In this document: one piece after another, positions 5,911 to 61,138 of the stretch
How the letters are laid out: the number at the start of each line of letters is the position of its first letter
Numbering within the stretch: position 1 is the stretch's first letter
NCBI GenBank assembly: GCA_014859465.1
Contig: JACUUF010000003.1
Coordinates: 1 to 64,000 of the forward strand
Direction: 5' to 3'
DNA: 64,000 nucleotides
Origin: Methyloprofundus sp.
GTDB lineage: Bacteria > Pseudomonadota > Gammaproteobacteria > Methylococcales > Methylomonadaceae
The notes under the pieces: model-generated
Database searches by the model: none
What the model saw: the letters and a program-made list of their open reading frames with translations, nothing else
What the model was told of the DNA's origin: nothing
Translations under genes and position numbers: made by a program

Positions 5911-7410
5911 ATGTATGAAAATTTAGAGACAGCGAGCAACTCAAAAAATTTAAAACGAGTGGTCGTTGACCCTGTTTCCCGTGTTGAAGGTCATGGCAAA
6001 GTCACATTATTGCTGGATGAAAATAATAAAGTTCAACAAGCTCGCTTGCATATTGTTGAATTCCGTGGCTTTGAAAAATTCATTCAAGGCCGCCCTTATT
6101 GGGAACTGCCAGTTTTAGTGCAACGCTTATGCGGCATCTGCCCAGTGAGCCATCATTTAGCTGCGGCAAAAGCCATCGACCAACTCGTTGGTATTGACCC
6201 AGCTGAGCTACCTGTTTCTGCTGACAAACTGAGACGTTTATTGCATTTCGGTCAAGTTATGCAGTCCCACGCCTTACACTTTTTTCACTTATCCAGCCCT
6301 GATTTATTATTTGGCTTTGAAAGTGATATTAGCAAACGCAATATTATTGCTGTTTTAAATGACTTTCCTGAGGTCGGTTTACAAGGCGTCAAATTACGTA
6401 AATTTGGCCAAGAGGTCATTCGCATGGTTTCAGGCAAACGCATACATGGCACAGGTGCGATTGCTGGCGGCATGAATAAGGCACTTAACAAAGAAGAGCG
6501 CGATTACTTACTTGCTGATGTAGACCAAATGATTGCATGGGCAGCAGGCTCAGTTGCCTTAGTTAAAAAGATACATCGCTCTAATTTACCGTATTATGAT
6601 AACTTTGCCACCATCGCCACTAATTACCTAGGTCTAACTAAATCAGATGGTGCATTAGAGCTATATCATGGGGGTATACGTGCGAAAGATGCTAACGGTA
6701 AGACCCTTCTAGATCAGTTTGATTATTGCCATTACAACGATATTATCCATGAAGAAGTACGCTCTTGGACTTATATGAAATTTCCCTACCTTACCTCTAT
6801 AGGCAAAGAAGATGGCTGGTATCGCGTAGGACCTTTAGCCCGATTAAATATCTGTGACTACATTGATACGCCCCTAGCAGAAGCAGAACGCGTTGATTTT
6901 AAAAATCAAGGTGGCGCAATCATGGTGCACAGCACATTGGCCTTTCATTGGGCCCGCTTAATTGAGGTATTGCATTGCGCTGAAAGCATCAAAATTTTAC
7001 TCAATGATCCTGATATCATGGGCTCTGACCTAGTTGCACAAGGTGAAAAACGTTATTCAGGCGTTGGTGTGATCGAAGCACCACGCGGTACCTTATTCCA
7101 TCATTATGAAGTTGATGATGACGATATTGTCACTAAAGCTAATTTAATTGTTTCTACCACGAGCAATAATATGGCAATGAATGAATCAGTGCGCCAAGTG
7201 GCAGCTGAATATTTATCAGGGCAAGAGCTGACCGAACCGCTCTTAAATAATTTAGAAGTCGCTATACGCGCTTACGACCCTTGCTTATCCTGTGCAACTC
7301 ATGCTGTTGGCAAGATGCCGCTACAAGTGGAATTAATTGATGCAGAAGGTCAATGTATTGATAAAATAATGAAACAGAGTAATGGCCAAATCGTAAAACT
7401 AGAAAATTAG
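5911..7410 (+). CDS. hoxH: [NiFe]-hydrogenase large subunit, HoxH type, without partner genes
   Basis: A 499-residue catalytic large subunit of a group 3d NAD-linked [NiFe]-hydrogenase. The NiFe site cysteines are all present: RLCGIC (C74, C77) and DPCLSCATH (C458, C461, H464). A C-terminal extension of about 35 residues follows H464, as expected of a precursor cut by a HoxW-type protease after nickel insertion. AAAGGA lies 8 nt before the ATG. HoxH normally works with HoxY (small subunit) and the HoxFU diaphorase, but none of these, nor hyp or hoxW genes, is in the window: chemotaxis genes lie on one side and holB-pilZ on the other, on the opposite strand. It therefore looks monocistronic. 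Partners must be encoded elsewhere, or the gene is a relict with intact catalytic motifs. Confidence 0.92.
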   Translation: MYENLETASNSKNLKRVVVDPVSRVEGHGKVTLLLDENNKVQQARLHIVEFRGFEKFIQGRPYWELPVLVQRLCGICPVSHHLAAAKAIDQLVGIDPAELPVSADKLRRLLHFGQVMQSHALHFFHLSSPDLLFGFESDISKRNIIAVLNDFPEVGLQGVKLRKFGQEVIRMVSGKRIHGTGAIAGGMNKALNKEERDYLLADVDQMIAWAAGSVALVKKIHRSNLPYYDNFATIATNYLGLTKSDGALELYHGGIRAKDANGKTLLDQFDYCHYNDIIHEEVRSWTYMKFPYLTSIGKEDGWYRVGPLARLNICDYIDTPLAEAERVDFKNQGGAIMVHSTLAFHWARLIEVLHCAESIKILLNDPDIMGSDLVAQGEKRYSGVGVIEAPRGTLFHHYEVDDDDIVTKANLIVSTTSNNMAMNESVRQVAAEYLSGQELTEPLLNNLEVAIRAYDPCLSCATHAVGKMPLQVELIDAEGQCIDKIMKQSNGQIVKLEN

Positions 7411-38561: not shown

Positions 38562-38915
38562 TTAAGGTCGATAAACCGCATTGGTTTTAGGTGTTTCACT
38601 GACACTCACTGAAACGACTTCAGGCCACATAGCTTTAGCATAATCATAAAGATATTTAGCAATGGCTTCTGCTGTAGTAAAGCCACTCAAAACATCATTT
38701 AAATGGCGATGATCTAAAGTATCATCAATAATTTTTTTAAAACCGCTCAGCTCATTGTAATCAACAACAAACCCCGTTGCATTTAACTCCTCAGCCGCCA
38801 AAGTCAGCTCGACCACATAATTATGGCCATGCAAACGACTACAAGGATGTCCTTCGGGTAAGCCCTCAATAATATGGCTAGCACTGAAACTAAATTGCTT
38901 AGAAATTGTATACAC
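38562..38915 (-). CDS. queD: 6-carboxy-5,6,7,8-tetrahydropterin synthase QueD
   Basis: A 117-residue enzyme for queuosine precursor synthesis. The zinc ligands are H14, H29 and H31, catalytic Cys25 lies in HPCSRLHGHN, and LDHRHLND carries the catalytic His. No other queuosine gene is adjacent. A terminator lies 25 nt upstream, so it probably has its own promoter in that short space or relies on readthrough. Confidence 0.94.
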   Translation of the reverse strand: MYTISKQFSFSASHIIEGLPEGHPCSRLHGHNYVVELTLAAEELNATGFVVDYNELSGFKKIIDDTLDHRHLNDVLSGFTTAEAIAKYLYDYAKAMWPEVVSVSVSETPKTNAVYRP

Positions 38916-39372: not shown

Positions 39373-41193
39373 TTAGCTCTTGTCTTGCATAACAGAAACT
39401 CTTAACGCTTCTATTTTGGCACTGTAATCTTTGTATTCATTTGAATCACTGGGGGAATAATTGAGATTTTTAAATAGGCCTGTCAGTTTGGTGAAATAAT
39501 CGCGGGCGGCATCTTTGTCAGTAAAGTGATAATGAGTATTCACTAACTTAACAATGGTATTTAAACTTTCCTGCTGTCTTTTCAGGGGAACGGCTAAATC
39601 AACTGGATCAAACGCATCTTGTTGTAAATAAACCATATCTAAAAACAAGGCCTGCTGGAAAATAATATAATCCTCATTAGTCACACCCTCCTCGCCTGTC
39701 ACTTGGATCATTTGTGATATTTCATCGCCTTTGCGTAACAACTTTAATAATTGCTGCACGTTGTCCACCCAGGATTGCGATAAATTTTCGGTAAACCAAG
39801 GCTGTAATTGTTTTAAATAACGCGACCATGATAATAAAGGGTCAACAGCGGGATAAAAACGTTTATAAGCGCGGTCTGCACTTAAACCTAAAAAGGTCTT
39901 TACTGTGCCTAGGGTTGATTGCGTTACGGGTTCTTCAAAGTTGCCGCCTGCGGGTGATACCGTACCGATCATAGTCAAAGTCCCTTCACTCTGATCAGCC
40001 GTTTTAATCACTCCGGCACGCTCATAAATGCCTTTAATGGCGGAATCTAAATAGGCGGGAAAGGCTTCTTCACCGGGGATTTCTTCTAATCTACCCGAGG
40101 TTTCACGCATGGCCTGTGCCCAGCGCGAGGTTGAATCGGCGATAATCAAAACATTCAAACCCATCTGGCGGTAGTACTCGCCTAGGGTAATGCCGGTATA
40201 AATTGAGGCTTCACGCGCAGCAACGGGCATAGACGAGGTATTGCAAATAATCACGGTGCGATCCATTAAGGTATCGCCTTTAGCATCTTTGAGCTTAGGG
40301 AATTCGGTAATGGTTTCTACCACTTCGCCAGCACGTTCGCCACAAGCGACCACAATCACGATATCGACATCGGAATTACGCGAAATTAAATTTTGTAATA
40401 CGGTTTTTCCGGCGCCAAAAGGCCCGGGAATACAGCCCATGCCTCCTTTAGCAATGGGAAAAAAACTATCAATAAGACGCAAATGGGTAACTAAAGGCTC
40501 GTGCGGGTAAATACGCTGGGCAATATTTTGCTTTAATAACATTTTTGGCAGGGCTTTACGTACTGGCCAACGCTGCTTTAAAGTGAGCGTTGTTTCTTTG
40601 CCTGATGCCAGTTTGATTTTAGCCACAGGCTCATCAACGGTAACACTGCCTTCTTGAATCCAAGTAACGACGACTTCTTCTTGAAGATCAAAAGGCACCA
40701 TGATTTTGTGCGTATACCCTCTTTCTGGCACCGTACCTATCACTGCACTAGCGCGTAATACTGCGCCCGTTTGCACAATGGGTGTAAAAGCCCATTTGGT
40801 ATTATTATCCAAAGCAGGAAAATCAACGCCTCTAGGCAGAAAATAACCAAATTCACTGGCTAATTTATCCAATGGATTTTGCAAGCCATCATAAACCTGA
40901 CCTAATAACCCCGGGCCTAGCTCAACAGAAAGCATTTCCGCGCTTTGCTCAACTAAATCGCCGACGGCAACGCCAGCAGTACTTTCATAAACCTGAGCAT
41001 CGGCTACCGAGCCATTAATACGCAAAATCTCGGCTTTTAAGCGCTCTTGGTATTTGGTGTCACTGCGTGTTGGTAAAATATATACGACTTCATTTTTAGT
41101 TAAAGGTTGTTTACTTCCCGGTAATGTCTCTATCGATACCAAGCTATCTTGGACGGAGACAACCTTTGCACTTGCGTTCGTTGTGTTATTCAT
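39373..41193 (-). CDS. atpA: V-type ATPase catalytic subunit A
   Basis: A 606-residue catalytic subunit of a bacterial V/A-type ATPase. The Walker A motif GPFGAGKT is at residues 257-264, with Walker B in NVLIIADSTSRWAQ and the A-subunit non-homologous insert around residues 120-200. It is last in the operon, downstream of the DUF2764 gene. In the common chlamydial-type order A is followed directly by B, whereas here B is at the far 5' end. Confidence 0.96.
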   Translation of the reverse strand: MNNTTNASAKVVSVQDSLVSIETLPGSKQPLTKNEVVYILPTRSDTKYQERLKAEILRINGSVADAQVYESTAGVAVGDLVEQSAEMLSVELGPGLLGQVYDGLQNPLDKLASEFGYFLPRGVDFPALDNNTKWAFTPIVQTGAVLRASAVIGTVPERGYTHKIMVPFDLQEEVVVTWIQEGSVTVDEPVAKIKLASGKETTLTLKQRWPVRKALPKMLLKQNIAQRIYPHEPLVTHLRLIDSFFPIAKGGMGCIPGPFGAGKTVLQNLISRNSDVDIVIVVACGERAGEVVETITEFPKLKDAKGDTLMDRTVIICNTSSMPVAAREASIYTGITLGEYYRQMGLNVLIIADSTSRWAQAMRETSGRLEEIPGEEAFPAYLDSAIKGIYERAGVIKTADQSEGTLTMIGTVSPAGGNFEEPVTQSTLGTVKTFLGLSADRAYKRFYPAVDPLLSWSRYLKQLQPWFTENLSQSWVDNVQQLLKLLRKGDEISQMIQVTGEEGVTNEDYIIFQQALFLDMVYLQQDAFDPVDLAVPLKRQQESLNTIVKLVNTHYHFTDKDAARDYFTKLTGLFKNLNYSPSDSNEYKDYSAKIEALRVSVMQDKS

Positions 41194-41217
41194 TTAACTT
41201 TCAAAACCTCTAATTAA

Positions 41218-41904
41218 TTAGGCTGTTTGTAAAAAATCACCTAAGCCATGATTGACTAATGCTTCAAATTGAAGCATGGCTGCTTGCTCATCACATTGGC
41301 TCCATCGATTGACTATATCCCAGCGCAATACATAAAGAACAACCGCTTCAAAATCAAAATAATGGGCTTGGCCTAACTGTGCATAATGCTGCCAGCTCAA
41401 ATTTAACAACAACTTTTCCAATTCAACACTTTCATTGGCGACAAATAAGGCTTGTGCTTTAGTGACCCAAGGAAAGCGATGGCTTAAACCAAAATCATCT
41501 AACTGCCAATTATTGCGAATCAGGGGCAGAACTTGACCATATCCCCAATGCTCATGTTTATCGGGTGGCGGGCGATTTAATTTGCGTCGTCTAATTGCGG
41601 TCACAATAATACGTAATTCTAAACGCCAGATAATAGCTTGTTGCAATAAGGGATTATGAATAGATTTGATAACACGCTTAGCTTCAATAGCAATCTCGGC
41701 ATCACTATTAAGGTCTTGCATTTTTGCCCAGTGTAAAATACTTTCTATGGCGGCTAATTGCTGACTGTCCTGCTCAGTTAATAATTTTAACTGGCGCTCT
41801 AAGCGCAAACGGGTTACTGGCTTATGTTTAAAACAATCCCACAAAGACATAGGATGCGGCGGCAAACTCGCCATTAACATCGTATAAGCCGTTTTTTGTT
41901 TCAC
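41218..41904 (-). CDS. DUF2764 protein of the V-ATPase operon (probable C-like subunit)
   Basis: A 228-residue soluble protein, mostly helical by composition, with no signal or membrane segment. It resembles the DUF2764 protein found between E and A in chlamydial and Bacteroidetes V-ATPase operons, including LPPHPMSLWDCF near the start and a conserved Trp/Tyr-rich C-terminal half (FDFEAVVLYVLRWDI). No subunit C gene is otherwise present, so it may fill that central connector role; this is inference. It overlaps atpE by 4 nt. Confidence 0.78.
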   Translation of the reverse strand: MKQKTAYTMLMASLPPHPMSLWDCFKHKPVTRLRLERQLKLLTEQDSQQLAAIESILHWAKMQDLNSDAEIAIEAKRVIKSIHNPLLQQAIIWRLELRIIVTAIRRRKLNRPPPDKHEHWGYGQVLPLIRNNWQLDDFGLSHRFPWVTKAQALFVANESVELEKLLLNLSWQHYAQLGQAHYFDFEAVVLYVLRWDIVNRWSQCDEQAAMLQFEALVNHGLGDFLQTA

Positions 41905-42590
41905 TTCACAATACCTTGTAAGAGCGTTCTAAATCTAGGCTGTAAATGCTCAAGCAATAGAGCGGAAATTGTTTCATCACTAAAATCAATGACCATGTCA
42001 TCATCCTGTAAACGTACCGATAACCCTTTGCTGACGTCCCCTGAAACCTCTATCGAAACGCCCTCACGCAGCATATCAGCCGCAATAGAGGCGGTATAAT
42101 GCGTTAAAGTACCGACCTTCATTTCTTCTGGGTTACTCTTTAATTCATCAACGCCGACTGCATTATTAGGCAAGAAAATACTAATATTCTCTTTGCTGTC
42201 TAAATCTAGCTGTTCACGCACTTTACCGGCTAGTTGCAAGATAAGACGCTCTAAAAAAGTATCTTGTGCCATTTTTTGCCCAACAACCCGTTTGACCTCT
42301 TTACTAAAGCTACCTAACAAGGTATCGCGTAGCTTTAATAAGGCGTCTCTGGTTGCCAGCTTTAAAGCATCTTCGCCTGCGGCACGTAACGCATCACTTT
42401 GCTTTTTTGCCTTATCTAACAATTGTTGTGCTTCTAATTCGGCCTCTTCAATAATCCATTCTGCGCGTTTCTGTGCGTCTAAAACAATGCTTTCCGCCCG
42501 CTCTTGTCCGGCGGCAACACCTTGATCACGTAAACGCTGGATTAAATTTTCTACACCCGATGAGGTGACTTCTGTATTTTGCTCACTCAT
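41901..42590 (-). CDS. atpE: V-type ATPase peripheral stalk subunit E
   Basis: A 229-residue subunit with a long N-terminal helix rich in Ala, Glu, Lys and Gln (about 10-90, typical right-handed coiled-coil stalk) and a globular C-terminal domain (from about 100). No separate subunit G/H gene is visible, as in other compact bacterial V-ATPases. It starts 12 nt after atpK ends, the junction that marks the rotated gene order. Confidence 0.85.
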   Translation of the reverse strand: MSEQNTEVTSSGVENLIQRLRDQGVAAGQERAESIVLDAQKRAEWIIEEAELEAQQLLDKAKKQSDALRAAGEDALKLATRDALLKLRDTLLGSFSKEVKRVVGQKMAQDTFLERLILQLAGKVREQLDLDSKENISIFLPNNAVGVDELKSNPEEMKVGTLTHYTASIAADMLREGVSIEVSGDVSKGLSVRLQDDDMVIDFSDETISALLLEHLQPRFRTLLQGIVK

Positions 42591-42602
42591 ACCTGATTAT
42601 CC

Positions 42603-43058
42603 TTATGCGACAGTCTGAGGAAGGTTGGCACTAATAACCAAAGCAAAAATAAAGGCAAATACCGCAAAACCTTCAACAATGGCAGCCGGAGCAATCGATA
42701 AACCAAAAATTTCAGGCTTTGATTTGGTTGCATGAATGGCTGATGCACAGCATTGACCTTGATAAATAGCACTCATCATTAAAGCTAACCCAGCCAACAC
42801 ACCAATAGCGAATAAGCCCGGCGCTACTTCAGCGGTGACGGGTCTATTTAAGGTAAACATAACCACAATACCGTAAATAACCTGAGACGAAGGCATAGCA
42901 GAGACCCCGACATAACGGCCATAACCACTCTCTGTATCCAGCATCGCGCCAATCGCTGCCTGTCCCGCTGTGGCACAACCAATAATACTGCCTATTGCAC
43001 CTAAAGCCATCGGTGCATATAAGCCTATCCAACCCAAAACAACAGTAAAATCACTCAT
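42603..43058 (-). CDS. atpK: V-type ATPase proteolipid subunit K
   Basis: A 151-residue rotor-ring subunit with four hydrophobic helices. The ion-carrying carboxylate is Glu129 in AAIVEGFAVFAF. Helix 2 has MPSSQ (S58, Q59) and helix 3 has AIYQGQ (Q100). These fit the Na+ ligands of Enterococcus NtpK (T64, Q65, Q110, E139), with Q100-E129 spaced 29 residues as Q110-E139 are. A Na+-translocating ring is therefore plausible. Its ATG overlaps the atpI stop. Confidence 0.93.
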   Translation of the reverse strand: MSDFTVVLGWIGLYAPMALGAIGSIIGCATAGQAAIGAMLDTESGYGRYVGVSAMPSSQVIYGIVVMFTLNRPVTAEVAPGLFAIGVLAGLALMMSAIYQGQCCASAIHATKSKPEIFGLSIAPAAIVEGFAVFAFIFALVISANLPQTVA

Positions 43059-44857
43059 TAATAACCCTCTTTTTTAGAAAATGCGTTAAACGGATAGCCC
43101 TCATCAGAGACACTCCAATTATAAAATTCAATGAAATTTAAACGTAAACCATGCACCACACCGCTCATAATGCCTAACATAATATTCAGCGTATGGCCGA
43201 TAAGCAAAATCAGAATACTGAATAATAAACCCATCCCTGGCATTGCGTGATAAACCTGCTCAGCGAGTTGATTAAAGGTAATGGCCAAAGATGCACTGGC
43301 CAAACCAAGCGCAAATAAACGCATATAACTTAAAACATCACCAAATATTTTGGTGATACTGGTTAAACTCTTGATTCCATCAAATAAACGCAAAAGTATA
43401 TCCAGTGGCTTCTGGATCTTACGTTCACCACTGAATAATAACAAACAGAATACTGCTGTTCCTAAAAGCCCGTAAGCCGTTTGTTCTAAAATAACTTGCT
43501 CACTAGATTGCGCCAACCACAAGACAAAGCCACCGACGACAAATAAAACCCAGCCTAAGGCTGCAAAGCGCTCTGTTTTATGTCTGAGTTGATAGGCTTG
43601 CACCAGGTTTGCCAAAGCAATATGCACGACACCGACACAAATAGAGAGACGCATCATCGCGTCAAAATCATTCATATCTAAGCTATGTAATTTGCCCAGT
43701 AATTGCTCAGGAGCTGGCTCAAAACCAAAATAACTACCCACCATCATTCCCCATAGGACAGAAAAAATCAAAGTAACTAGGAGTAACATCCTAAAACGTA
43801 ATCCTTGCGTTGTGCGTCCCATTTTCTGCCATTTAAGCGCTAAAACCGCCATAAACAAGGCGGCATAACCTGCATCAGAGAGGATCATGGCAAAAAATAA
43901 GGCAAAAGAAAAGAACACCACAATCGACGGATCCCAACTGTAATAATTGGGCGTTTGATAAAACTTAACCACCTCTTCGCCACCCGCGAAGGTGGTGGTG
44001 TTTTTTAATAAAGTCGGCGGCTGTTCTACGCCATCAGGCTCTTCAATTAACAAAGCCAAGCGATGAAACTGGGAAAAATTATCTATTCGTGGCAAATCAT
44101 CTGAGGCAATCCAACCTTGCACCACAAACACATCCGGCTCATCTCGCGTGAGTAAATGTGCGCCATCTAAAGCGGACTGATTTTCATAAGCCGCTAAATT
44201 AAGCATAATTAAAGACATCCAGCGTGTTAAATATTCACGTTTGGCATAAGCATCTTCTATTGCCAATTCAGTATCATCTAAATCTTTATGTAACTGCGAC
44301 AAAGATAAACTGCCGACATGCGTTCTAGGCACGGGCATATCTTTACTTGCGGGCTCATCTTTAGCTATAACGACCACATAGGCATCGGTATTGGTCTGAT
44401 TAACGATTTCCCACACAAGATCCGATTGACGCACAATTTTCATTAAGCGTTTCGGTACGATATAAAACCAAAGTTTATAGCTCTGTAATTGTCCCTCTTC
44501 AGCAAGTGAAAAATCCCCCCATAAGGCAACCTCTTTAATACGTTGCTGCAAAAATTCGCGTTGATCTAATAAATCAAGCAAATTATTTTTCAGGTGCATG
44601 ACCTCTTGAACAACGGCTGCAAATTCAAAACCTTGAGACTGAGTCACTTGGTGGCGTTTTTTAGGGCATTGCTGCAAATATTTTAGCGCTGTCAGTGCTT
44701 CTTCAATATTATGCACCGGTGCGTTATCAGATTTTTTTATCTCACCTGCTAATGGAATAAGATGCGTGCCACCTAGGCTTTGCAGCTTATCTAAAACCTT
44801 TGCTTTATCAGCAATTAACCCGCAGAGAGTTACTTTTTTAAGCGCTACAATAGCCAT
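43058..44857 (-). CDS. atpI: V-type ATPase subunit I (a-subunit homologue)
   Basis: A 599-residue subunit. The N-terminal cytoplasmic half has coiled-coil regions (about 70-115 and 190-230). The C-terminal half has about seven membrane helices, with FGDVLSYMRLFALGLAS carrying the conserved Arg of the half-channel, and GHTLNIMLGIMSGVVHGLRL near the end. It overlaps its neighbours atpD and atpK by a base or so, indicating tight coupling. Confidence 0.95.
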   Translation of the reverse strand: MAIVALKKVTLCGLIADKAKVLDKLQSLGGTHLIPLAGEIKKSDNAPVHNIEEALTALKYLQQCPKKRHQVTQSQGFEFAAVVQEVMHLKNNLLDLLDQREFLQQRIKEVALWGDFSLAEEGQLQSYKLWFYIVPKRLMKIVRQSDLVWEIVNQTNTDAYVVVIAKDEPASKDMPVPRTHVGSLSLSQLHKDLDDTELAIEDAYAKREYLTRWMSLIMLNLAAYENQSALDGAHLLTRDEPDVFVVQGWIASDDLPRIDNFSQFHRLALLIEEPDGVEQPPTLLKNTTTFAGGEEVVKFYQTPNYYSWDPSIVVFFSFALFFAMILSDAGYAALFMAVLALKWQKMGRTTQGLRFRMLLLVTLIFSVLWGMMVGSYFGFEPAPEQLLGKLHSLDMNDFDAMMRLSICVGVVHIALANLVQAYQLRHKTERFAALGWVLFVVGGFVLWLAQSSEQVILEQTAYGLLGTAVFCLLLFSGERKIQKPLDILLRLFDGIKSLTSITKIFGDVLSYMRLFALGLASASLAITFNQLAEQVYHAMPGMGLLFSILILLIGHTLNIMLGIMSGVVHGLRLNFIEFYNWSVSDEGYPFNAFSKKEGY

Positions 44858-45459
44858 TAACTTGCCTCTCTAAGACGTTTTTGTTTGGTACTTTTAGCAC
44901 GTACAACCCCAGCCGTATCCATATCAGAGAGATAGATACGAATTTTACGCATATCTTGCTGCGCTTGGGGGATGAGCACTTTATCGAATAAGTTAACCCG
45001 TTGCGTGACTTTTTTCAGTGCTTGGCCTAAGATTTCCACACGTTGCGTATCAATTTGCTGACGAATTTTTAACTCCATCATAACTTTTAACTGAACAACC
45101 AACTGATCCACCCAATGCGGTTCCGTAAAAAGTGAATAAGGCCGTACCTCAATAACCATTTTATCCAATATCGGCACATACACACCGACTATATTTTCTT
45201 CACCTATCTCAACTTGCGTTAATTTAACCAGATCCGTCATATGAATGCTTTTATCCGCTAGCATAGGTAACATAGCCGCAGTTTGCTGATAACATTGCGC
45301 TATGTCCAGCTCTGTCTGCTGTAAGCGTAATTGCGCTTTTTTACGTTCAGCCGCTAATTGTTGACGCTTCAAATCTAAAGACGGCAAAAACTTCTTATAA
45401 CGCTTTAATTGTGCGCCTATTTTACTTAAAGAGGACTTACTGTACGCTAACCTAGCCAT
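44857..45459 (-). CDS. atpD: V-type ATPase central-stalk subunit D
   Basis: A 200-residue protein with two long coiled-coil helices (about 10-75 and 130-180) of the D/gamma rotor type, and the conserved KSSLSKIGAQLKRYKKFLPS N-terminus. It overlaps the end of atpB by 8 nt and the start of atpI. No subunit F gene is seen. Confidence 0.92.
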   Translation of the reverse strand: MARLAYSKSSLSKIGAQLKRYKKFLPSLDLKRQQLAAERKKAQLRLQQTELDIAQCYQQTAAMLPMLADKSIHMTDLVKLTQVEIGEENIVGVYVPILDKMVIEVRPYSLFTEPHWVDQLVVQLKVMMELKIRQQIDTQRVEILGQALKKVTQRVNLFDKVLIPQAQQDMRKIRIYLSDMDTAGVVRAKSTKQKRLREAS

Positions 45460-46804
45460 TAGAATTCTTTATTGCAGGAAAATATTTATCGACTAAAACT
45501 TGCTTCATTAATAATTCACTTTCGTTAAAGCACTCAGCCAAAGTTTGCCAACATAAATCTAAAGCCTGTTCCAGAGGAATAGACACATCGAGACGCATAA
45601 ATCGTTCTCTAAATAGCCCCCCGAATTTTATTTGTTTTTCATCGAATAGGGACAAATCAAATGCCATCGCTTGTTTTTGTTCTGCTTCTACCGCACCGGA
45701 ATAAAAACGAATCATGGTATTCATAACTTGCGCATGATCTTCTCGGGTACTGCTACCAATGACATGCTGTTTTAACCTCGATAAAGAGCCGAAAGGATCG
45801 AGCATATGATCATGTAAATAAAACTGGCCTTCGGTAATATACCCGGTATTATCTGGCACAGCATGCGTAACGTCGCCACCTGGCATAGTCGTTACCGATA
45901 AAATAGTCACCGAACCAGCGCCATCGTAATCACAGGCTTTTTCATAACGTCGTGCCAATTGCGAGTATAAATCGCCCATATAACCTCGGTTTGCGGGAAC
46001 GCGCTCCATGGAAATACCGACCTCTTTCATGGCATCTGCGTAAGCTGTCATATCGGTTGCTAAAACCAAAACGCGCTTACTTTCTTCAACGGCAAAACGC
46101 TCAGCCACAGCCAAAGCCATATCTAACACCAATAATCGTTCCACAATGGGATCTGAGGCGAGATTACAAAACATAACCGTTCGTGCAAATACACCTGCGC
46201 CTTCAAATTGCGCCTGAAAATAATGAAAATCATCAAAGATCAAACCTAAACCGGCAAACACCACAATATCAGCATCGGCCTGAATACCAATACGCGCCAA
46301 GAACGCATTATAAGGCTCTCCAGAAACAGAAAAAATGGGGATTTTTTGACTCTCGACCAAACAATTGAACACATCAATCATGGGCACATTGGTACGAATC
46401 ATTTTAGAGGCAAGAATACGCTTTACGGGATTAACAGAAGGGCCATCGATAGCTATTTTTGGGTCATGCTCCAACTTAGATCCGCCATCCATCGGCTCGC
46501 CCATGCTATTAAATATTCGACCCAAAATATCCGCTGAATAAGTGACCTTCATGGCTGTCCCTAAAAAACGAATCGAGGCAGCATTAGACACACCTTGGGT
46601 ACCGGAAAATACTTGCAAAGCAATTTCATCTCGGTCAATTTTAATGACCTGAGCAACCGAAGTACTAAATTCATCTTCGACTATCGCCAAATCACCAAAC
46701 CGCGTTACCGCATTGGTGCTTGCTTCCTTATTAGCAACACTGACAGTAATAATATTGCCAACGATGGAAAGGATATTATGATGCCTGACCATTTGTTGAA
46801 TCAT
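45452..46804 (-). CDS. atpB: V-type ATPase regulatory subunit B
   Basis: A 450-residue non-catalytic nucleotide-binding subunit. It lacks a canonical P-loop (FSVSGEPYNAF replaces it), as expected for B, and keeps SVTTMPGGDVTHAVPDNTGY and the ITEGQFYLH motif. The ATG at 46804 has GGAG 6 nt upstream; a longer frame is not needed. It is the first gene of the operon. The 125-nt upstream gap contains a possible promoter (TTGCCG, 16 nt, TAATAT) on the minus strand. Confidence 0.95.
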   Translation of the reverse strand: MIQQMVRHHNILSIVGNIITVSVANKEASTNAVTRFGDLAIVEDEFSTSVAQVIKIDRDEIALQVFSGTQGVSNAASIRFLGTAMKVTYSADILGRIFNSMGEPMDGGSKLEHDPKIAIDGPSVNPVKRILASKMIRTNVPMIDVFNCLVESQKIPIFSVSGEPYNAFLARIGIQADADIVVFAGLGLIFDDFHYFQAQFEGAGVFARTVMFCNLASDPIVERLLVLDMALAVAERFAVEESKRVLVLATDMTAYADAMKEVGISMERVPANRGYMGDLYSQLARRYEKACDYDGAGSVTILSVTTMPGGDVTHAVPDNTGYITEGQFYLHDHMLDPFGSLSRLKQHVIGSSTREDHAQVMNTMIRFYSGAVEAEQKQAMAFDLSLFDEKQIKFGGLFRERFMRLDVSIPLEQALDLCWQTLAECFNESELLMKQVLVDKYFPAIKNSNG

Positions 46805-46929
46805 GCGGAACTCCAAAATTTTAATAATGATAAACAAGATAAATCATATTACCATGTAATCATATACCGGCAATATGACAAACTTACTCAAACAACACAA
46901 AAAGCGACCATAAATCGCAACAGCATCAT

Positions 46930-48066
46930 CTATATCTGTTTAAATAAATTAGCCAAAGCCAAATGATCCGATATTACCCCAGCAGAAATAACCTTATCCC
47001 TACCGCTATTTTTTGCCTTATACAGAGCCTCGTCAGCTTTATGAATTAAATCAGCACCTATTTCAGCCGAACTTAAAGCTGATCTCTTAGCTGGTTTATA
47101 AGTTGAACTACCAATAGAAATTGTTACAGAAACAACTTCATTTTGCGTTTCTATGACCAATGCTTTAATTTTTTTTCTGATTCTTTCAGCAATATCTAAT
47201 GCCATTGCCTCATCAATATTAACCAATAAAGCCACAAATTCCTCGCCACCATAACGCGCCAAGACATCATTACTACGTAATTGTTCACGTATCACATTAG
47301 CCACGGCAACTAAAACCTGATCTCCTGCTTGATGTCCGTAGGTATCATTGACTTGCTTAAAAAAATCCACATCCAAAAAGAAACAAGATAATGGCTCGGA
47401 ACTACGCTGCACACGGTCAATCTCTTCACCTAAGCGCTGTTCAAGAAAACGGCGGTTATTAACCCCCGTTAAAGTATCAATTAAACTTGTCCGTTTCATC
47501 ATTTCATAATTTAAATGATTTTCCAGACAAACACTAACAACAGAAGTCATATGCTCAATAAAGTCTGTCGCCATAGTGTCGGTAAAGCGTGCCGCCATTA
47601 AACTACCCATGCTTAATGCGCCCAAACATTGGCCACGACGCACCAATGGGATAATGGCCACACTCTCTGGCGGCTGGCTATTAACAGCAAAAAAGCGAGC
47701 ACACTTAGGACTTTTAAATTTGCCTAAATAAGGGCTATTCGAGCCACCGAAAGTGGCTTGCAAAGCTTCATTATCATCTAAAAAAATGAGTTGTGGATTT
47801 TCCTTTAATTCAAAACCATCTTCTTGTAAAAACTTTTTCAGCTCATCCTTTGCATCTATCAAGCAAAAACCAATATAATCGAGATCAAAAAAATCTTGGG
47901 CATTTAAAACATATTCGACCATTTCCGCTAAAGAATTAAGATCAAGTAAGCCCCTCTCAAACAGTTGAAAACGCCGCAGCGTGGTATTATTAGAGTGCAC
48001 ACGCTCTAACATGGCATCCAAATGACTCTGTAAGACCAGCAAATCGGTTGTTAAGTCTTCTTCCAA
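46930..48066 (-). CDS. Diguanylate cyclase with N-terminal GAF-like domain
   Basis: A 378-residue soluble protein making c-di-GMP. The first 185 residues resemble the DUF484/GAF group (LNSLAEMVEYVLNAQDFFDL, IIPLVRRGQCLGALSMGS). The GGDEF domain has an active GGEEF at 273-277 and an RSND inhibitory I-site at 264-267, exactly five residues before it. The apparent start is a TTG at 48066 without a clear Shine-Dalgarno sequence; an ATG 18 codons in is possible. It is upstream of the V-ATPase operon and divergent from ligA. Confidence 0.92.
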   Translation of the reverse strand: MEEDLTTDLLVLQSHLDAMLERVHSNNTTLRRFQLFERGLLDLNSLAEMVEYVLNAQDFFDLDYIGFCLIDAKDELKKFLQEDGFELKENPQLIFLDDNEALQATFGGSNSPYLGKFKSPKCARFFAVNSQPPESVAIIPLVRRGQCLGALSMGSLMAARFTDTMATDFIEHMTSVVSVCLENHLNYEMMKRTSLIDTLTGVNNRRFLEQRLGEEIDRVQRSSEPLSCFFLDVDFFKQVNDTYGHQAGDQVLVAVANVIREQLRSNDVLARYGGEEFVALLVNIDEAMALDIAERIRKKIKALVIETQNEVVSVTISIGSSTYKPAKRSALSSAEIGADLIHKADEALYKAKNSGRDKVISAGVISDHLALANLFKQI

Positions 48067-56231: not shown

Positions 56232-58436
56232 TTAAAACTCCACTTTCCCCGTTTCAATATTATACATAGCACTAACAATATCGATGTCACCGGCTACTTG
56301 CATTGCCTTTAATAACGGGCTTCTTTGCTTGATTTGCTCAACCATAATTTCTACATTACGGTCAGCAACTTTATCTTCTAGACAGCTATCTACTAGACTA
56401 TTTTTGGCAAAGTCTCCTGTTTTGACTGCTTGAACAGCAGGCTGAATTTTATCCAGCAACCCAGTCAAATTACCCAACTCCACACCAGCACAAGCACCTT
56501 TAATAGCGCCACAATGGGTATGCCCCAAAACCACAACTAACTTAGAACCAGCGACCTTACACGCATATTCCATACTGCCCAAAATATCGTCATTAACCAC
56601 ATTACCCGCAACTCTAACACTGAAAATATCGCCCAAACCTTGATCAAAAACCAATTCAGCTGAAGTACGTGAATCAATACAGCTCAAGATAATAGCAATA
56701 GGAAACTGCCCTTCGACTGTTTCGTTAACCTGGGAGAGTAAATTTCGGGTATTTTTAATACTGTTGACAAAGCGGTTGTTACCCTCTTGCAATATTGCCA
56801 GGACAGCTGCGGGGGTTAATAACTGCTGCGACTCTTGACTCACCGGTAGAACATACTCAACGGGCTTTAAAAAGCCAAAGCCTCGTAGATTCTGAATGAC
56901 AAGATGAATACCTTTACGTGTGGCATCAACCTTGAAGTTTTGAATCACTTCGTAAACATCATAATCAATATATTTTGCATAAGTCGCATCAATAACGATA
57001 TTGGCATTTTTCGGTAACTCATTAAGCATATGTAGAATATTCGATTTATTTAAAAAAGAGACGTTTTCTGATAGGGTAATAATCGTTTTATTGTGCCCTT
57101 GTTGTTCATGCAAGTGAAAACCGACTTTTTTATTTTCCAGCAAAATAAAAAATAACGCACAGCCCATGCCAATACTAAGGCCGGTCAACATATCAGAAAA
57201 AATCAAACCAATAATTGTCGCTATAAAAGGGATGAAATGGTACCAACCGACTTGATACATGGTTTTAAACCATCTTGGATTGATCAACTTATAAGCGACT
57301 ACGAGAAAAATGGCAGCTAAACTTGCCAAAGGAATCTTATTGATTAAATTAGGCAGTAATAACACCGCAATGAATAAAAATAGGCCCTGCATAAAAGCCG
57401 ATACCTTAGTGCGACTACCCGCTTGCACATTCGCAGAACTACGTACAATTAATTGCGTCATAGGTAAGCCACCAAGTAATCCAGAGCAAATATTACCGAT
57501 CCCTTGTGCTCGTAATTCGCGATTGGTTGAAGTCACTCGCTTATAAGGATCCAGCTTATCCATAGCTTCAACACATAATAAAGTCTCCAAACTGGCAACA
57601 ATAGCAAGTATAAAGGCAACACGATAAACAGCAGGGTTATTAATTTGTGCAAAATCAGGCCATGTAAAAATTTGCCCCAAGTCAGAGACGGTTTCTGCAA
57701 CAGGCAATAACAGTAAATGCTTATCTATTAACGCCCATTGCGGATAGAATGTAATAAATGCTTGATTTAACAGCACTCCGACGAGAACGACAACAATTTC
57801 CCCGCGTAAATTTTTACTCAATCGGTACTGTTTAATCCACTGCGTTTCCCACAATAATAAAATCAACAAGCAGATTGAGCTGATAATAATAGCACCGGGC
57901 GCCATAAAATCGAGCATGTGTTGTAACTCAGTGAGGGTCGTATACTGATCGCTCTGAATAAATGACATATCCCCTTCAAAATCTCTGTCATAGCCTATGG
58001 CATGTGGGATCTGCTTAAGAAAAATAATAAGACCAATACCTGATAACATGCCGGCAATCACTGCAGAAGGAAAATAATAAGCAATAATCCCAGCTCTAAT
58101 ATTACCCAGTATAAATTGTAGAATACCCGCTAAAACGACCGTTAATAGAAAAGTATTAAAACCTAACTCCGAAATAGCACCGAAGACAATCACAGCCAGC
58201 CCCGCAGAAGGACCGGTAACACCCAATGCCGAACCACTGAAGCTAGTGACCACAAGGCCACCTACTACACCAGCAATCAACCCAGCATACAACGGGGCTC
58301 CTGAAGCTAAAGCAACGCCTAAACATAAAGGCAAAGCTAATAGAAAAACAACAAGACTGGCCGGCAAGTCATGCGCCAGGGTTTTTTTATAACTTAAAAT
58401 CGGGGCTTTCTTTGCAGAAAATAAATTTTTTAGCAT
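56232..58436 (-). CDS. SulP transporter fused to a beta-carbonic anhydrase
   Basis: A 734-residue fusion. Residues 10-430 form a SulP (SLC26-like) transporter with about 10-12 membrane helices (GVALASGAPLYAGLIAGVVG, VTGPSAGLAVIVF). A STAS-like domain follows (about 440-530), then a beta-carbonic anhydrase from about 555. Zinc ligands and partners are intact: C586-x-D588-x-R590 and H639-x-x-C642 (GHTHCG). A bicarbonate transporter coupled to CO2/bicarbonate conversion is the natural reading, although sulfate cannot be excluded. Confidence 0.92.
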   Translation of the reverse strand: MLKNLFSAKKAPILSYKKTLAHDLPASLVVFLLALPLCLGVALASGAPLYAGLIAGVVGGLVVTSFSGSALGVTGPSAGLAVIVFGAISELGFNTFLLTVVLAGILQFILGNIRAGIIAYYFPSAVIAGMLSGIGLIIFLKQIPHAIGYDRDFEGDMSFIQSDQYTTLTELQHMLDFMAPGAIIISSICLLILLLWETQWIKQYRLSKNLRGEIVVVLVGVLLNQAFITFYPQWALIDKHLLLLPVAETVSDLGQIFTWPDFAQINNPAVYRVAFILAIVASLETLLCVEAMDKLDPYKRVTSTNRELRAQGIGNICSGLLGGLPMTQLIVRSSANVQAGSRTKVSAFMQGLFLFIAVLLLPNLINKIPLASLAAIFLVVAYKLINPRWFKTMYQVGWYHFIPFIATIIGLIFSDMLTGLSIGMGCALFFILLENKKVGFHLHEQQGHNKTIITLSENVSFLNKSNILHMLNELPKNANIVIDATYAKYIDYDVYEVIQNFKVDATRKGIHLVIQNLRGFGFLKPVEYVLPVSQESQQLLTPAAVLAILQEGNNRFVNSIKNTRNLLSQVNETVEGQFPIAIILSCIDSRTSAELVFDQGLGDIFSVRVAGNVVNDDILGSMEYACKVAGSKLVVVLGHTHCGAIKGACAGVELGNLTGLLDKIQPAVQAVKTGDFAKNSLVDSCLEDKVADRNVEIMVEQIKQRSPLLKAMQVAGDIDIVSAMYNIETGKVEF

Positions 58437-58462: not shown

Positions 58463-61138
58463 TTATTCATCTAAGGCAATTTCTGGACGCCATGCTAACC
58501 ATTCGGGTTCATAGTCCTCATGCAAATCAAAGACTTGCCCAGCCTGAACATGAGTAGCCATTATTTCTTCCGCTTCTGGTGTGGCGAAAGCGATACCACC
58601 GGTAACAATACTTTCCACTGACTCAGTACGCACTTCTGCGCCACTAATCCAACCAAAATCAATGTTGACCCCACTAGCATTCCAAAACTTAGTATTGTTT
58701 TTTATTAACGGTGCATATTGAGGCGCAATATAAATATCAATTAAAACCTGCGTAGCATTACTGGATAATCGAAAGCCTCTCACTTCACCGACATTCATTT
58801 GTCGATAAGCAACACTGTTACCCACTTTAATTGAACCTAAACGTGGCGTTTGCAAAACAAGATGTAAACCTTGTTTTATTTTCGCTTGATTAAGTTTTGC
58901 GACAAATTCTGTTTGTTTAGCACCCTTACCTGGCTCTATGTCCAAATAGCTGCCTTTAATTAAGGTATCTAGGTTTTTATTTTTAAATAAACCTAATTGC
59001 GCTGAAACTAACCAAAATTTCGTCCCTGCCCTTGCAAATTGAATCGCTGAGCCGAATAATTTGGCATTAGCAATAATCGCTTGATTATCTTCTGCTAATT
59101 TAACTGAGCTTATCTCTCCAACCGGAATACCCAGGTACTTAATAGCCGTGCCTGCACTAATACCATTCGCTAAAGAAAATTTTATTTTAATTTCCTCAGC
59201 TAATTGCAAAGCGCTTTGTTCATCTGGATAAAGATGATAAATTTTATTAGCTTTTTCTTTTATAGTGACTGTGTTTTCAAGCGTAGGATTAGCAAAACTA
59301 ATACCACCATTCAACAACGCACTAAGCGATGTCATATTCACATCAACTCCCGCTAAACCTGCTTTAACTTTCAAGCCACTATTACGCCAAAACTGACTAG
59401 AATCGGTGAGTAAATGCCGATATTTATTACGTATGGCAACACTCATAATAATGCTGTCATTGTCTTCACTCAAACGGTAGAAAACTAGCTTACCTACGGA
59501 GATTTTCTTAAAATAAACTTGCGAGCCAATGGCTAAAGAACCTAAATCATCCGTGCTAATCTGAATAATAGTTTCATCTTTTGCTGGCTTATAAGGTGTT
59601 AGTCCGGAGCCTGTGGCCGCAGCATAACTAGGATATAAATCATAAAGTGCATGATTTTTAATTTTTTTAGTACTTAATTCGGGGGTTATAAATTCAATAC
59701 CACCATTCAACACCGTCCCCATGGTTCCAGTTTGAATGTCCATACCTGCCGTACCTATACTCACTTGCACACCACTGGCATTCCAGAAACGTGAACTAGG
59801 CGCGACTAAATGGGCATAGCGTTCGGTAATGTAAATATCAATTAAGACACTTTCGCCTTTTTTATCGAGTTTAAAATCATGCACTTGACCTACTTGTATT
59901 TTTTTATAAAGAACAGGGCTGCCATATTCAATAGAACCTAAAGAATCTGCTTTTAAAATCAGATGTATGCCTTTATCACCAATAGACATTAAAGGGGGTT
60001 TATTAAGAGCAATAAACTCTCTCACACTTAGCCCCTCACCTACCTGCATTTTGATATGATTTCCTTGTAATAAGGATTTCAAACCCGAAAAATCAGTGAG
60101 TGAAAGTTTCGGTTTATCTAGCCAAAATTTTGTACCTGCTTTTAATAATTGTTCGGCACGTGGATCAAACATCACGTCTGCAATAACACTTTTACCTGTC
60201 TTTTTATAACTTAATTTCTTAACAATACCGATTTTAAAAGCATCATACTGAACTTCGGTGACACCCGCTTGTAAACCAATGGCCGATTCAAAACTAATTT
60301 CAACCAAAATACCGACCTTAGCACTGTCAAAATCACCATGTAATTTAAATTGCGTGGCGCTATCAGCAGTATCAACACTTTCAGTATCTGGTGTGAAAAA
60401 CGCAATCCCCCCTGCAATCAATGCAGCTAATGATTCTGTCTGCATAGAAAAGCCGCTTAACCCGGCTTTTATTGACAAACCACTGGCATTCCAAAATCGT
60501 GATGATTTTTTTACCAAATAAGCGTAACGCGCTTCAATAAGCGCTTTAATAATGACACCATTTTGTGCTTCGGCCAATTCATAATCCAACACTTCACCCA
60601 CAGGAATTTGACGAAAATAGATTTTCGAGCCTCGCGCAATGGAACCTAAACTATCGGCCAAAATATCAATAGTCAAACCTAACTTATGCTCCTCTATAAT
60701 CGGCGGCTTATCTAAAGCAATAAACTCTCTTTGCTGCTCTCCTTCCCCTGGATTCATGCGTATATAATTTCCAGAAACAATGGTATCTAGGCCAGTAATT
60801 TCAGTCATAGAAACTTTGGGCTTAACCAACCAAAATCCCGTCGTTTTTCTAAGGCTTTCGCTGGCCGCACGCTGAATTTCAGCCAACACTTTAACTTGCT
60901 GCAAATTGGCACTAATATCTACTTTTTTGACCACACCTATGCGCACACCTTTATATATAATAGGCGTTTTTCCTTCGCGAATTCCTTCAGCATCATCAAA
61001 TACGATAGAAATTTCAATACCTTTTTCATTCATGCTTTGATAAATGGTCCAGCCGCCCATTAGAGCAGCGACTAAAGGCAATAACCAAATACCCGATAAC
61101 CAGTGTTTTTTTGTCATAACGGGCTTAGTTAGGCTCAT
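58463..61138 (-). CDS. LetB/PqiB-type MCE protein with seven MCE domains
   Basis: An 891-residue periplasmic-spanning protein with one N-terminal membrane helix (about 13-30). Seven MCE/MlaD repeats can be counted by the recurring core G-x-x-V-x-Y-x-x-x-x-V-G-x-V, near residues 40, 160, 285, 395, 530, 655 and 765. E. coli LetB (YebT, 877 residues) also has seven. They stack into a tunnel for lipid movement between membranes. It overlaps the LetA-like gene by 14 nt. Confidence 0.92.
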   Translation of the reverse strand: MSLTKPVMTKKHWLSGIWLLPLVAALMGGWTIYQSMNEKGIEISIVFDDAEGIREGKTPIIYKGVRIGVVKKVDISANLQQVKVLAEIQRAASESLRKTTGFWLVKPKVSMTEITGLDTIVSGNYIRMNPGEGEQQREFIALDKPPIIEEHKLGLTIDILADSLGSIARGSKIYFRQIPVGEVLDYELAEAQNGVIIKALIEARYAYLVKKSSRFWNASGLSIKAGLSGFSMQTESLAALIAGGIAFFTPDTESVDTADSATQFKLHGDFDSAKVGILVEISFESAIGLQAGVTEVQYDAFKIGIVKKLSYKKTGKSVIADVMFDPRAEQLLKAGTKFWLDKPKLSLTDFSGLKSLLQGNHIKMQVGEGLSVREFIALNKPPLMSIGDKGIHLILKADSLGSIEYGSPVLYKKIQVGQVHDFKLDKKGESVLIDIYITERYAHLVAPSSRFWNASGVQVSIGTAGMDIQTGTMGTVLNGGIEFITPELSTKKIKNHALYDLYPSYAAATGSGLTPYKPAKDETIIQISTDDLGSLAIGSQVYFKKISVGKLVFYRLSEDNDSIIMSVAIRNKYRHLLTDSSQFWRNSGLKVKAGLAGVDVNMTSLSALLNGGISFANPTLENTVTIKEKANKIYHLYPDEQSALQLAEEIKIKFSLANGISAGTAIKYLGIPVGEISSVKLAEDNQAIIANAKLFGSAIQFARAGTKFWLVSAQLGLFKNKNLDTLIKGSYLDIEPGKGAKQTEFVAKLNQAKIKQGLHLVLQTPRLGSIKVGNSVAYRQMNVGEVRGFRLSSNATQVLIDIYIAPQYAPLIKNNTKFWNASGVNIDFGWISGAEVRTESVESIVTGGIAFATPEAEEIMATHVQAGQVFDLHEDYEPEWLAWRPEIALDE

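Follow-up and report, generated by a model that had tools for sequence, protein, structure and literature searches.

A Block-Swapped DUF2764-Type V/A-ATPase Operon in Methyloprofundus sp.: A Known Enzyme in the Gene Order of One Far-Travelled Clade

Introduction

Positions 1–64,000 of contig JACUUF010000003.1 of Methyloprofundus sp., the whole stretch of DNA analyzed and hereafter called the window, contain a complete seven-gene operon for a DUF2764-type bacterial V/A-ATPase in the block-swapped order B-D-I-K followed by E-X-A, where X is the DUF2764 gene. The enzyme is of a known kind, and its variant arrangement marks one far-travelled clade. Taken together, the results make it quite probable that the two blocks were exchanged once in the ancestor of this clade, that the operon then spread horizontally, that X is rotor subunit C/d in another guise, and that the enzyme serves as an accessory ion pump. 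An operon starting with B and ending with A is the label of a single clade in all trees made, with at least six phyla represented by record titles, and the horizontal history of the pump can be traced from gene order. The very likely identity of DUF2764 as C/d is a more useful result than the rotation. If DUF2764 is indeed C/d, it fills a gap stated in the available text of two papers (PMC2936114; PMC10197588) and provides a direct structural test.

Gene Content and Order of the Operon

The operon consists of seven consecutive same-strand open reading frames (ORFs), read from 46804 to 39373 on the minus strand in the ORF list of the window (Table 1). In that list the B ORF opens with a TTG at 46837, and the ATG at 46804 was taken as its start. 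Operon genes overlap by 1 to 8 nucleotides (nt), except for the K-E gap of 12 nt and the X-A gap of 24 nt. Subunits A, B, D, I, and K were named by Pfam and NCBIfam models, and E by NCBIfam V-type E models alone, with scores below their cut-offs. Profiles iterated from the E and X of the window recovered E and X of operons with the Bacteroides-type order (the profiles by then included some rows from such operons), and an hhalign comparison of X from operons ordered like that of the window with Bacteroides-type DUF2764 gave a probability of 97 and an E-value of 8e-11. The assignments of E and DUF2764 in the preliminary description of this DNA therefore hold. As in DUF2764-type bacterial V/A-ATPases, A and B are of the bacterial type, D, I, K, and E genes lie in one gene run, and DUF2764 stands between E and A. 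No match to F (PF01990) or to AC39-type C (PF01992) was found in the window's genome (0 matches each; 99.38% complete, 418 contigs); among 14 control genomes, six match F and seven match AC39, Bacteroides ihuae being among the seven.

Table 1. Genes of the V/A-ATPase operon and its neighbors in the window.
Feature	Positions	Strand	Evidence
V-type ATPase subunit B, non-catalytic nucleotide-binding, first gene	45452..46804	-	NCBIfam PRK02118 1e-203, 677 bits, cut-off 431; Pfam ATP-synt_ab
Subunit D, central shaft	44857..45459	-	Pfam ATP-synt_D 1.4e-35; NCBIfam PRK02195 above cut-off
Subunit I, membrane stator, ion half-channels	43058..44857	-	Pfam V_ATPase_I 1.7e-13, over cut-off
Subunit K, c-ring, two hairpins	42603..43058	-	NCBIfam PRK09621 1.6e-55, above cut-off; alignment to 2bl2
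K-E gap, 12 nt, junction of two blocks	42591..42602	-	Sequence
Subunit E, peripheral stalk	41901..42590	-	NCBIfam PRK01558 1.4e-23, 83.6 bits, below cut-off 241; position
X, DUF2764 (PF10962), likely rotor subunit C/d counterpart	41218..41904	-	Pfam 8.9e-11, 42.4 bits, cut-off 24.1
Subunit A, catalytic, last gene	39373..41193	-	NCBIfam PRK04192 7.2e-226, 751 bits, cut-off 470
Upstream neighbor, DUF484-GGDEF diguanylate cyclase, not part of the enzyme	46930..48066	-	Pfam
Downstream neighbor, 6-pyruvoyl-tetrahydropterin-synthase (PTPS) family, not part of the enzyme	38562..38915	-	Pfam

The order E-X-A-B-D-I-K, here called classical, was read in Parabacteroides, Bacteroides, and Phocaeicola and in the gammaproteobacterial genome G481, and we take it to be the order of the Chlamydia operon as well. 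The window does not have this Chlamydia/Bacteroides arrangement. It has B-D-I-K-E-X-A instead, here called rotated, which is the classical order after exchange of the two adjacent blocks E-X-A and B-D-I-K. Both the gene order and its relation to the classical one as a rotation had been claimed in the preliminary description, and the ORFs and family models confirm the former, the orders read in Bacteroides-type records and G481 the latter. Enumeration gives 56 distinct single block moves for seven genes, of which 6 are rotations. The rotation pattern is not trivial, yet one exchange of two adjacent blocks is enough. Since any rotation of a linear operon equals a swap of two adjacent blocks, neither tandem duplication with complementary deletion nor excision of a circle, the two origins initially proposed, is required. 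A search for a long repeat as a scar of rearrangement, covering 36–50 kb of the window, found none; the sole repeats were one 21-nt two-copy match and one palindrome.

The size of the K-E junction is 12 nt in the sequence, as had been stated, but, contrary to the preliminary description, the junction is not new in the wider family. The order I-K-E-C-F-A-B-D was read in records of Enterococcus gallinarum, Peptoclostridium, and Pusillibacter, in which K and E are already adjacent, and K-E is therefore an old neighborhood. The Enterococcus-type operon shares with the window the cyclic neighbor order I-K-E-C-A-B-D, with K and E adjacent in both; it differs in its ordinary C and F and its starting gene, and it is distant in the A and B trees. 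Rubrobacter radiotolerans has D-hyp-I-K-E-C-F-A-B (K annotated 'ATPase'), the same cycle opened at yet another point. The idea that every V-ATPase order is a rotation was rejected, as Streptomyces fungicidicus has C before I-K. In genomes G266 and G479, a weak match to C (28 and 23 bits, respectively) also lies before I. A broader proposal, which we regard as unlikely, is that V/A-ATPase operons are mostly different cuts of a circular order I-K-E-C-(F)-A-B-D, and that one early tandem duplication followed by different losses gave E-C-A-B-D-I-K, B-D-I-K-E-C-A, and their common D-I junction; DUF2764 would then be the missing C, and the enzymes would be without just F and G. This circular-order view of V-ATPase operons becomes testable.

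Distribution of the Rotated Order

In the family of the window, DUF2764 was found in 51 of 151 sampled genomes, its own genome included, and 51 loci were fetched from the other 50. The order B-D-I-K-E-X-A is complete in 42 of these loci, and the other nine are split or cut by contig ends. The preliminary description had treated the rearrangement as an event of this lineage; synteny comparison does not bear this out, with the order present in those 42 loci and in six phyla. The family holds two rotated lineages, 13 of the 49 loci with a readable A being nearer to locus L049 than to the window. The second lineage sits beside Rhodopirellula (bootstrap 100 and Shimodaira–Hasegawa-like approximate likelihood ratio test, SH-aLRT, 100, in a 32-row tree). 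Genome G094 carries both lineages (loci L064 and L079), one window-type and one Rhodopirellula-like.

Several relatives have broken operons, and in the family of the window such breakage is ongoing. In G086, of the same genus, the operon is split exactly at K|E, with the halves about 82 kb apart on the same strand. In G002, X-A lies away from B-D-I-K-E (a break at E|X), in G017 A is on another contig (a break at X|A), and in G089 a LamG/DUF2341 gene is inserted between B and D. In the endosymbiont of Escarpia spicata (loci L120 and L214), A shares strand and contig with X but is about 6.4 kb farther on. K|E as the sole weak point of the operon was thus rejected by the breaks at E|X (G002) and X|A (G017, L120) and the B-D insertion (G089). 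In G086 (L099 8833-13038, L043 7496-10813), K is directly followed by a pyridine nucleotide-disulphide oxidoreductase gene, and downstream of A there is a gene for a STAND-like ATPase.

The class and phylum samples (369, 398, and 289 genomes) are the unbiased part of the survey. In the class sample, DUF2764 was found in 5 of 369 genomes, namely the window's own, one more of its family, G288, G481, and G266. G288 is rotated and G481 classical; a search of 53 genomes of the taxonomic order of G481 for more classical operons gave G481 alone. G266 has A-B-D on one contig and E-X on another, and I and K were not found there. This genome (L111, L110/L093) has two V-type ATPases, an archaeal-type cluster ending in A-B-D and a dispersed DUF2764-type enzyme, and in its taxonomic order (4 genomes) just archaeal-type-scoring B was found besides its own B. 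A scan of viral contigs with the B of Parabacteroides found no more classical operons. In the phylum sample, 2 of 398 genomes have DUF2764, the window's own and G529, which is rotated; in the class of G529, the B profile matches 4 of 289 sampled genomes, all rotated.

A larger named set comprises the best 80 of at least 572 confirmed loci from a scan with a B alignment headed by the B of G529. Gene order was taken by stop position, start positions having misordered three loci through over-long ORFs. The order B-D-I-K-E-X-A was read in 66 of the 80 loci, a few of them with A cut by the contig end. The remaining 14 are partial, of which 13 run out no more than 850 bases from a contig end and the fourteenth is L120. 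One of these 13, L179 on a Magnetococcales contig, has I and D on the strand opposite to B in a divergent layout, the single such case among the 80. In none of 131 loci (80 named and 51 of the family, the sets overlapping by several genomes) does A directly precede B. By record title, complete rotated operons are present in Pseudomonadota, Gemmatimonadota, Planctomycetota, Desulfobacterota, Myxococcota, and Cyanobacteriota, and a Firestonebacteria locus with A cut is also rotated. Many of the holders are metagenome bins; named strains include Cyanobium, Rhodopirellula, Ruegeria, Roseibium, Nitrincola, and Legionella massiliensis. In addition, 18 plasmid records have a B match, and a plasmid of Qingshengfaniella alkalisoli carries the whole rotated operon. 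A plasmid of Tateyamaria omphalii also carries it, with X in two adjacent or overlapping pieces (L112 13846-14537); that copy may be frameshifted. On a plasmid of Halomonas sp. KO116 (L113), B-D-I is accompanied by weaker matches to K and E; other genes come next, and X and A were not found nearby.

Phylogeny of Subunits A and B

A joint A and B tree was built from 71 rows (57 rotated, 4 classical, and 10 archaeal-type), rows at least 85% alike having been dropped from 130. A branch with an SH-aLRT of 100 separates the rotated rows from all the others. In the slower 32-row A and B tree, they form one clade (bootstrap 100, SH-aLRT 100), around which the classical rows are a grade, remaining undivided in 3% of the bootstrap trees. 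The rotated clade is kept with A alone (99) and B alone (99), and several subgroups are the same. Congruence of the A and B trees, part of the check put forward in the preliminary description, was found, the separate and joint trees agreeing on one rotated clade. One ancient block exchange with horizontal spread therefore fits best. Phyla are mixed in the rotated clade, as in the family lineage that sits beside Rhodopirellula, and horizontal transfer is therefore needed. Most likely, E-X-A and B-D-I-K were swapped once, in the ancestor of a large enzyme clade, and the seven-gene operon would then have passed between phyla by horizontal transfer, with copies also on plasmids. We infer that the operon was transferred as one unit.

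Identity of DUF2764

Subunits C, F, and G are said to be absent from the Borrelia, chlamydial, and Kuenenia clusters in the available text of one report (PMC2936114), and DUF2764 is called unknown in the available text of another, which places it in an operon that Bacteroides fragilis needs in deoxycholate (PMC10197588). X holds the operon place of subunit C in I-K-E-C-F-A-B-D operons, and a C/d identity was therefore tested. An AlphaFold2 model of the window X, made from 57 rotated X, has a predicted local distance difference test (pLDDT) score of 92 and a predicted template modeling (pTM) score of 0.86. When 998 of the best Foldseek chains were realigned to it, ranks 1–8 were all V-ATPase subunit d or Thermus C (Z 9.9–11.2, 196–210 residues, root mean square deviation 3.8–4.6), and the next row after these eight had a Z of 5.8.

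Sequence comparisons point the same way with varying strength. The DUF2764 proteins of Bacteroides and Phocaeicola match PF01992 (vATP-synt_AC39) with E-values of 4.4e-6 and 2.8e-5, respectively. Each match extends along most of the protein and falls just under the cut-off of 29 bits (26.7 bits for Bacteroides). Six of 57 rotated X match PF01992 at E ≤ 1, the best at 2.5e-4, and the gathering score was not reached. A five-protein subunit-C profile, which matches Thermus C in the PDB at 4.8e-34, recovered 63 of 132 X at E ≤ 10 vs. 22 of 1205 size-matched other ORFs, and the 12 best matches are all X; the members of the X set are related and partly duplicated. With hhalign, the comparison with subunit C is weak (rotated X, probability 11, E 0.0027; Bacteroides-type X, probability 45, E 2.2e-4), and a PDB sequence search with the 57 X gave nothing at E ≤ 10. 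On the modeled fold and these profile matches, X is likely the counterpart of rotor subunit C/d, without being placed in PF01992. Its model aligns with C/d (1v9m, 8eas_d) over 196–210 residues and it has the same operon position, but its length falls short of C/d by about 100 residues, and it does not reach the gathering score of PF01992. It has 228 residues in the window vs. 280–292 in the Bacteroides type. In the enzyme, X would join shaft D to the K ring, the rotor being D, X, and K, and the stator A3B3, E, and I, with no F. Neither a tie between DUF2764 and subunit C nor the order B-D-I-K-E-X-A was found in the searched literature, most subscription papers being outside it.

Ion Specificity and Role

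Thr64, Gln110, and Glu139 are presumably among the Na+ ligands of Enterococcus NtpK. The K of the window aligns with NtpK (2bl2), with S58, Q59, Y62, Q100, and E129 at positions of the Na+ site. The residues aligned to the NtpK ligands are M55, S58, Q59, Q100, and E129, a match to the ligand set, to which the available text of one paper adds Leu61 (by its carbonyl) and Gln65 (PMC2359735). The acidic residue of the window K is in the second hairpin only, as in V-type pumps. Adjacent genes on contig C204 of the genome encode the alpha, gamma, and beta subunits of an F-type synthase, and a FliI is also encoded. With an F-type synthase present and a V-type acidic pattern in K, an accessory ATP-driven pump is therefore preferred. 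The enzyme is likely an accessory Na+ export pump driven by ATP, where both the direction of pumping and the ion are deduced from sequence.

Neighboring genes were surveyed around 57 non-redundant rotated loci (972 ORFs of at least 120 amino acids within 6 kb, a number that includes antisense frames). No cluster of conserved neighbors that would reveal a function was present in more than 9 of the 57 loci. A Polyphosphate kinase 2 (PPK2) cluster is near six loci, one member of which (L051 11605-12507) was checked by Pfam, and a carbamate-kinase-like gene is near four (one checked by Pfam), overlapping B in Tateyamaria. These neighbors, though few, hint that stored phosphate or fermentation may fuel the pump. 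The PPK2 loci besides L051 are L049, L116, L178, L189, and L195.

Alternative Explanations

Several observations count against the joint reading of one ancient swap, horizontal spread, a C/d-like X, and an accessory pump. The named loci were selected by similarity to the B of G529, not that of the window, and the edge of the clade lies outside the best 80; in such a B-similarity set, order and tree position are not sampled independently. The Tateyamaria plasmid copy, with its divided X, also counts slightly against this reading. The small tree has five classical rows, one of which (G266) is without a full classical operon, and the approximately unbiased (AU) test did not reject the classical rows as one clade (p 0.389). 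Given this value and the long branches that meet where the rotated clade joins the classical rows, the exchange may have had either polarity. Whether the order is ancestral and widespread in unrelated phyla, which would have told against the preliminary description, is answered in part: it is widespread, with six phyla, and by the trees and the AU test it may be either ancestral or derived. The same p value favors a possible, though not probable, history in which the rotated order is the older and E-X-A-B-D-I-K is derived, or in which both came from a doubled tandem array I-K-E-X-A-B-D with different losses. The D-I neighborhood common to both bacterial orders fits this history, as does the fact that each is one block move from I-K-E-C-F-A-B-D, but the best trees place the rotated clade inside a classical grade that is rarely intact among the bootstraps. 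It is highly improbable that the operon was circularly permuted only recently, within this genome or its genus, through tandem duplication and complementary deletion or through excision and reinsertion of a circle. Such duplications may occur, as family genome G090 (L081 59-7141) has a 3347 bp tandem duplication of 99.9% identity, with B-D-I' before a complete B-D-I-K-E-X-A (assembly error is possible). However, the order is the same family-wide and in six named phyla, within one deep clade, which refutes a local rearrangement as a recent event, and no long repeat was found around the operon at 36–50 kb. It is also very unlikely that E-X-A and B-D-I-K come from two different operons that were joined. 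The separated halves in G086 show that the blocks are separable, and the operons of further relatives are interrupted at E|X or X|A; A alone, from the second block, and B alone, from the first, nevertheless agree on the rotated clade and on several subgroups.

For X, the contrary observations are that neither X model has a Foldseek match at E ≤ 0.001, and that PF01992 is not matched directly by the X of the window or by the DUF2764 of Parabacteroides and G481. A second X model (Rhodopirellula; pLDDT 92.8), made as a replicate, drew a smaller pool of 538 chains; among the rows listed from it, of which the best had a Z of 6.4, none was a d/C chain. This result neither repeats nor contradicts the first fold comparison. 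The lack of a Foldseek match and the second model would suit an unrelated helical protein standing in place of C/d, e.g., as a stand-in for F or G, and helical proteins often give middling Z values. We consider this quite improbable, as d/C accounts for each of the eight rows with Z ≥ 8, the Bacteroides and Phocaeicola proteins match AC39, the subunit-C profile prefers X to other ORFs with its 12 best matches all X, and X sits in the operon place of C. As to the ion, protons are argued for in methanotroph KS41 in the available text of one report (PMC6119699), and ATP synthesis is suggested in B. fragilis in that of another (PMC10197588). Na+ use is also not uniform, as Gln at K position 59 is absent in 23 of 125 rotated rows, near-duplicates included (Gln 102, Met 11, Phe 6, Ile 4, Thr 1, Gly 1), and some rotated relatives, Ruegeria among them, may use protons.

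Relation to Known Systems

The DUF2764-type V-ATPase of Bacteroides, as described in the available text (PMC10197588), shares A, B, D, E, I, K, and DUF2764 with the window, and its K has two hairpins with Na+ ligands, as in the window. The block order in the operons of Bacteroides, Parabacteroides, and Phocaeicola is swapped relative to that of the window. The Borrelia, chlamydial, and Kuenenia clusters share A, B, D, E, I, and K with it, as far as the accessible text goes (PMC2936114). In methanotroph KS41, a V-type operon has been reported as most similar to those of Planctomycetes, with lateral transfer proposed, in the accessible part of the paper (PMC6119699). This is the same kind of enzyme in a methanotroph, with lateral transfer as for the window's; the KS41 operon is probably in the second, Rhodopirellula-like lineage, whereas that of the window is in the other. 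ProAD, a survey that includes enzymes of this type, has no profile for C, and the order B-D-I-K-E-X-A was not met in the part of its text that was available (PMC11738941).

Expression Signals and Other Features of the Window

The preliminary description expected special control of the A:B ratio with A as the last gene. The predicted ribosome-binding signals lend this no support, the Shine-Dalgarno match of A (-6.5 kcal/mol) being close to that of B (-5.9). For D the match is almost none (-0.9), and its translation may depend on coupling to B. Promoter-like sites are fewer than in shuffles (8 vs. 20.6), and terminator-like sites are more numerous (18 vs. 9.2).

Elsewhere, the window encodes a sulfate-permease-family transporter with a fused carbonic anhydrase domain (56235-58436), a protein with seven MlaD-domain stretches (58466-61138), and a Nickel-dependent hydrogenase family protein (5911-7407; PF00374 1.2e-33, in two stretches).

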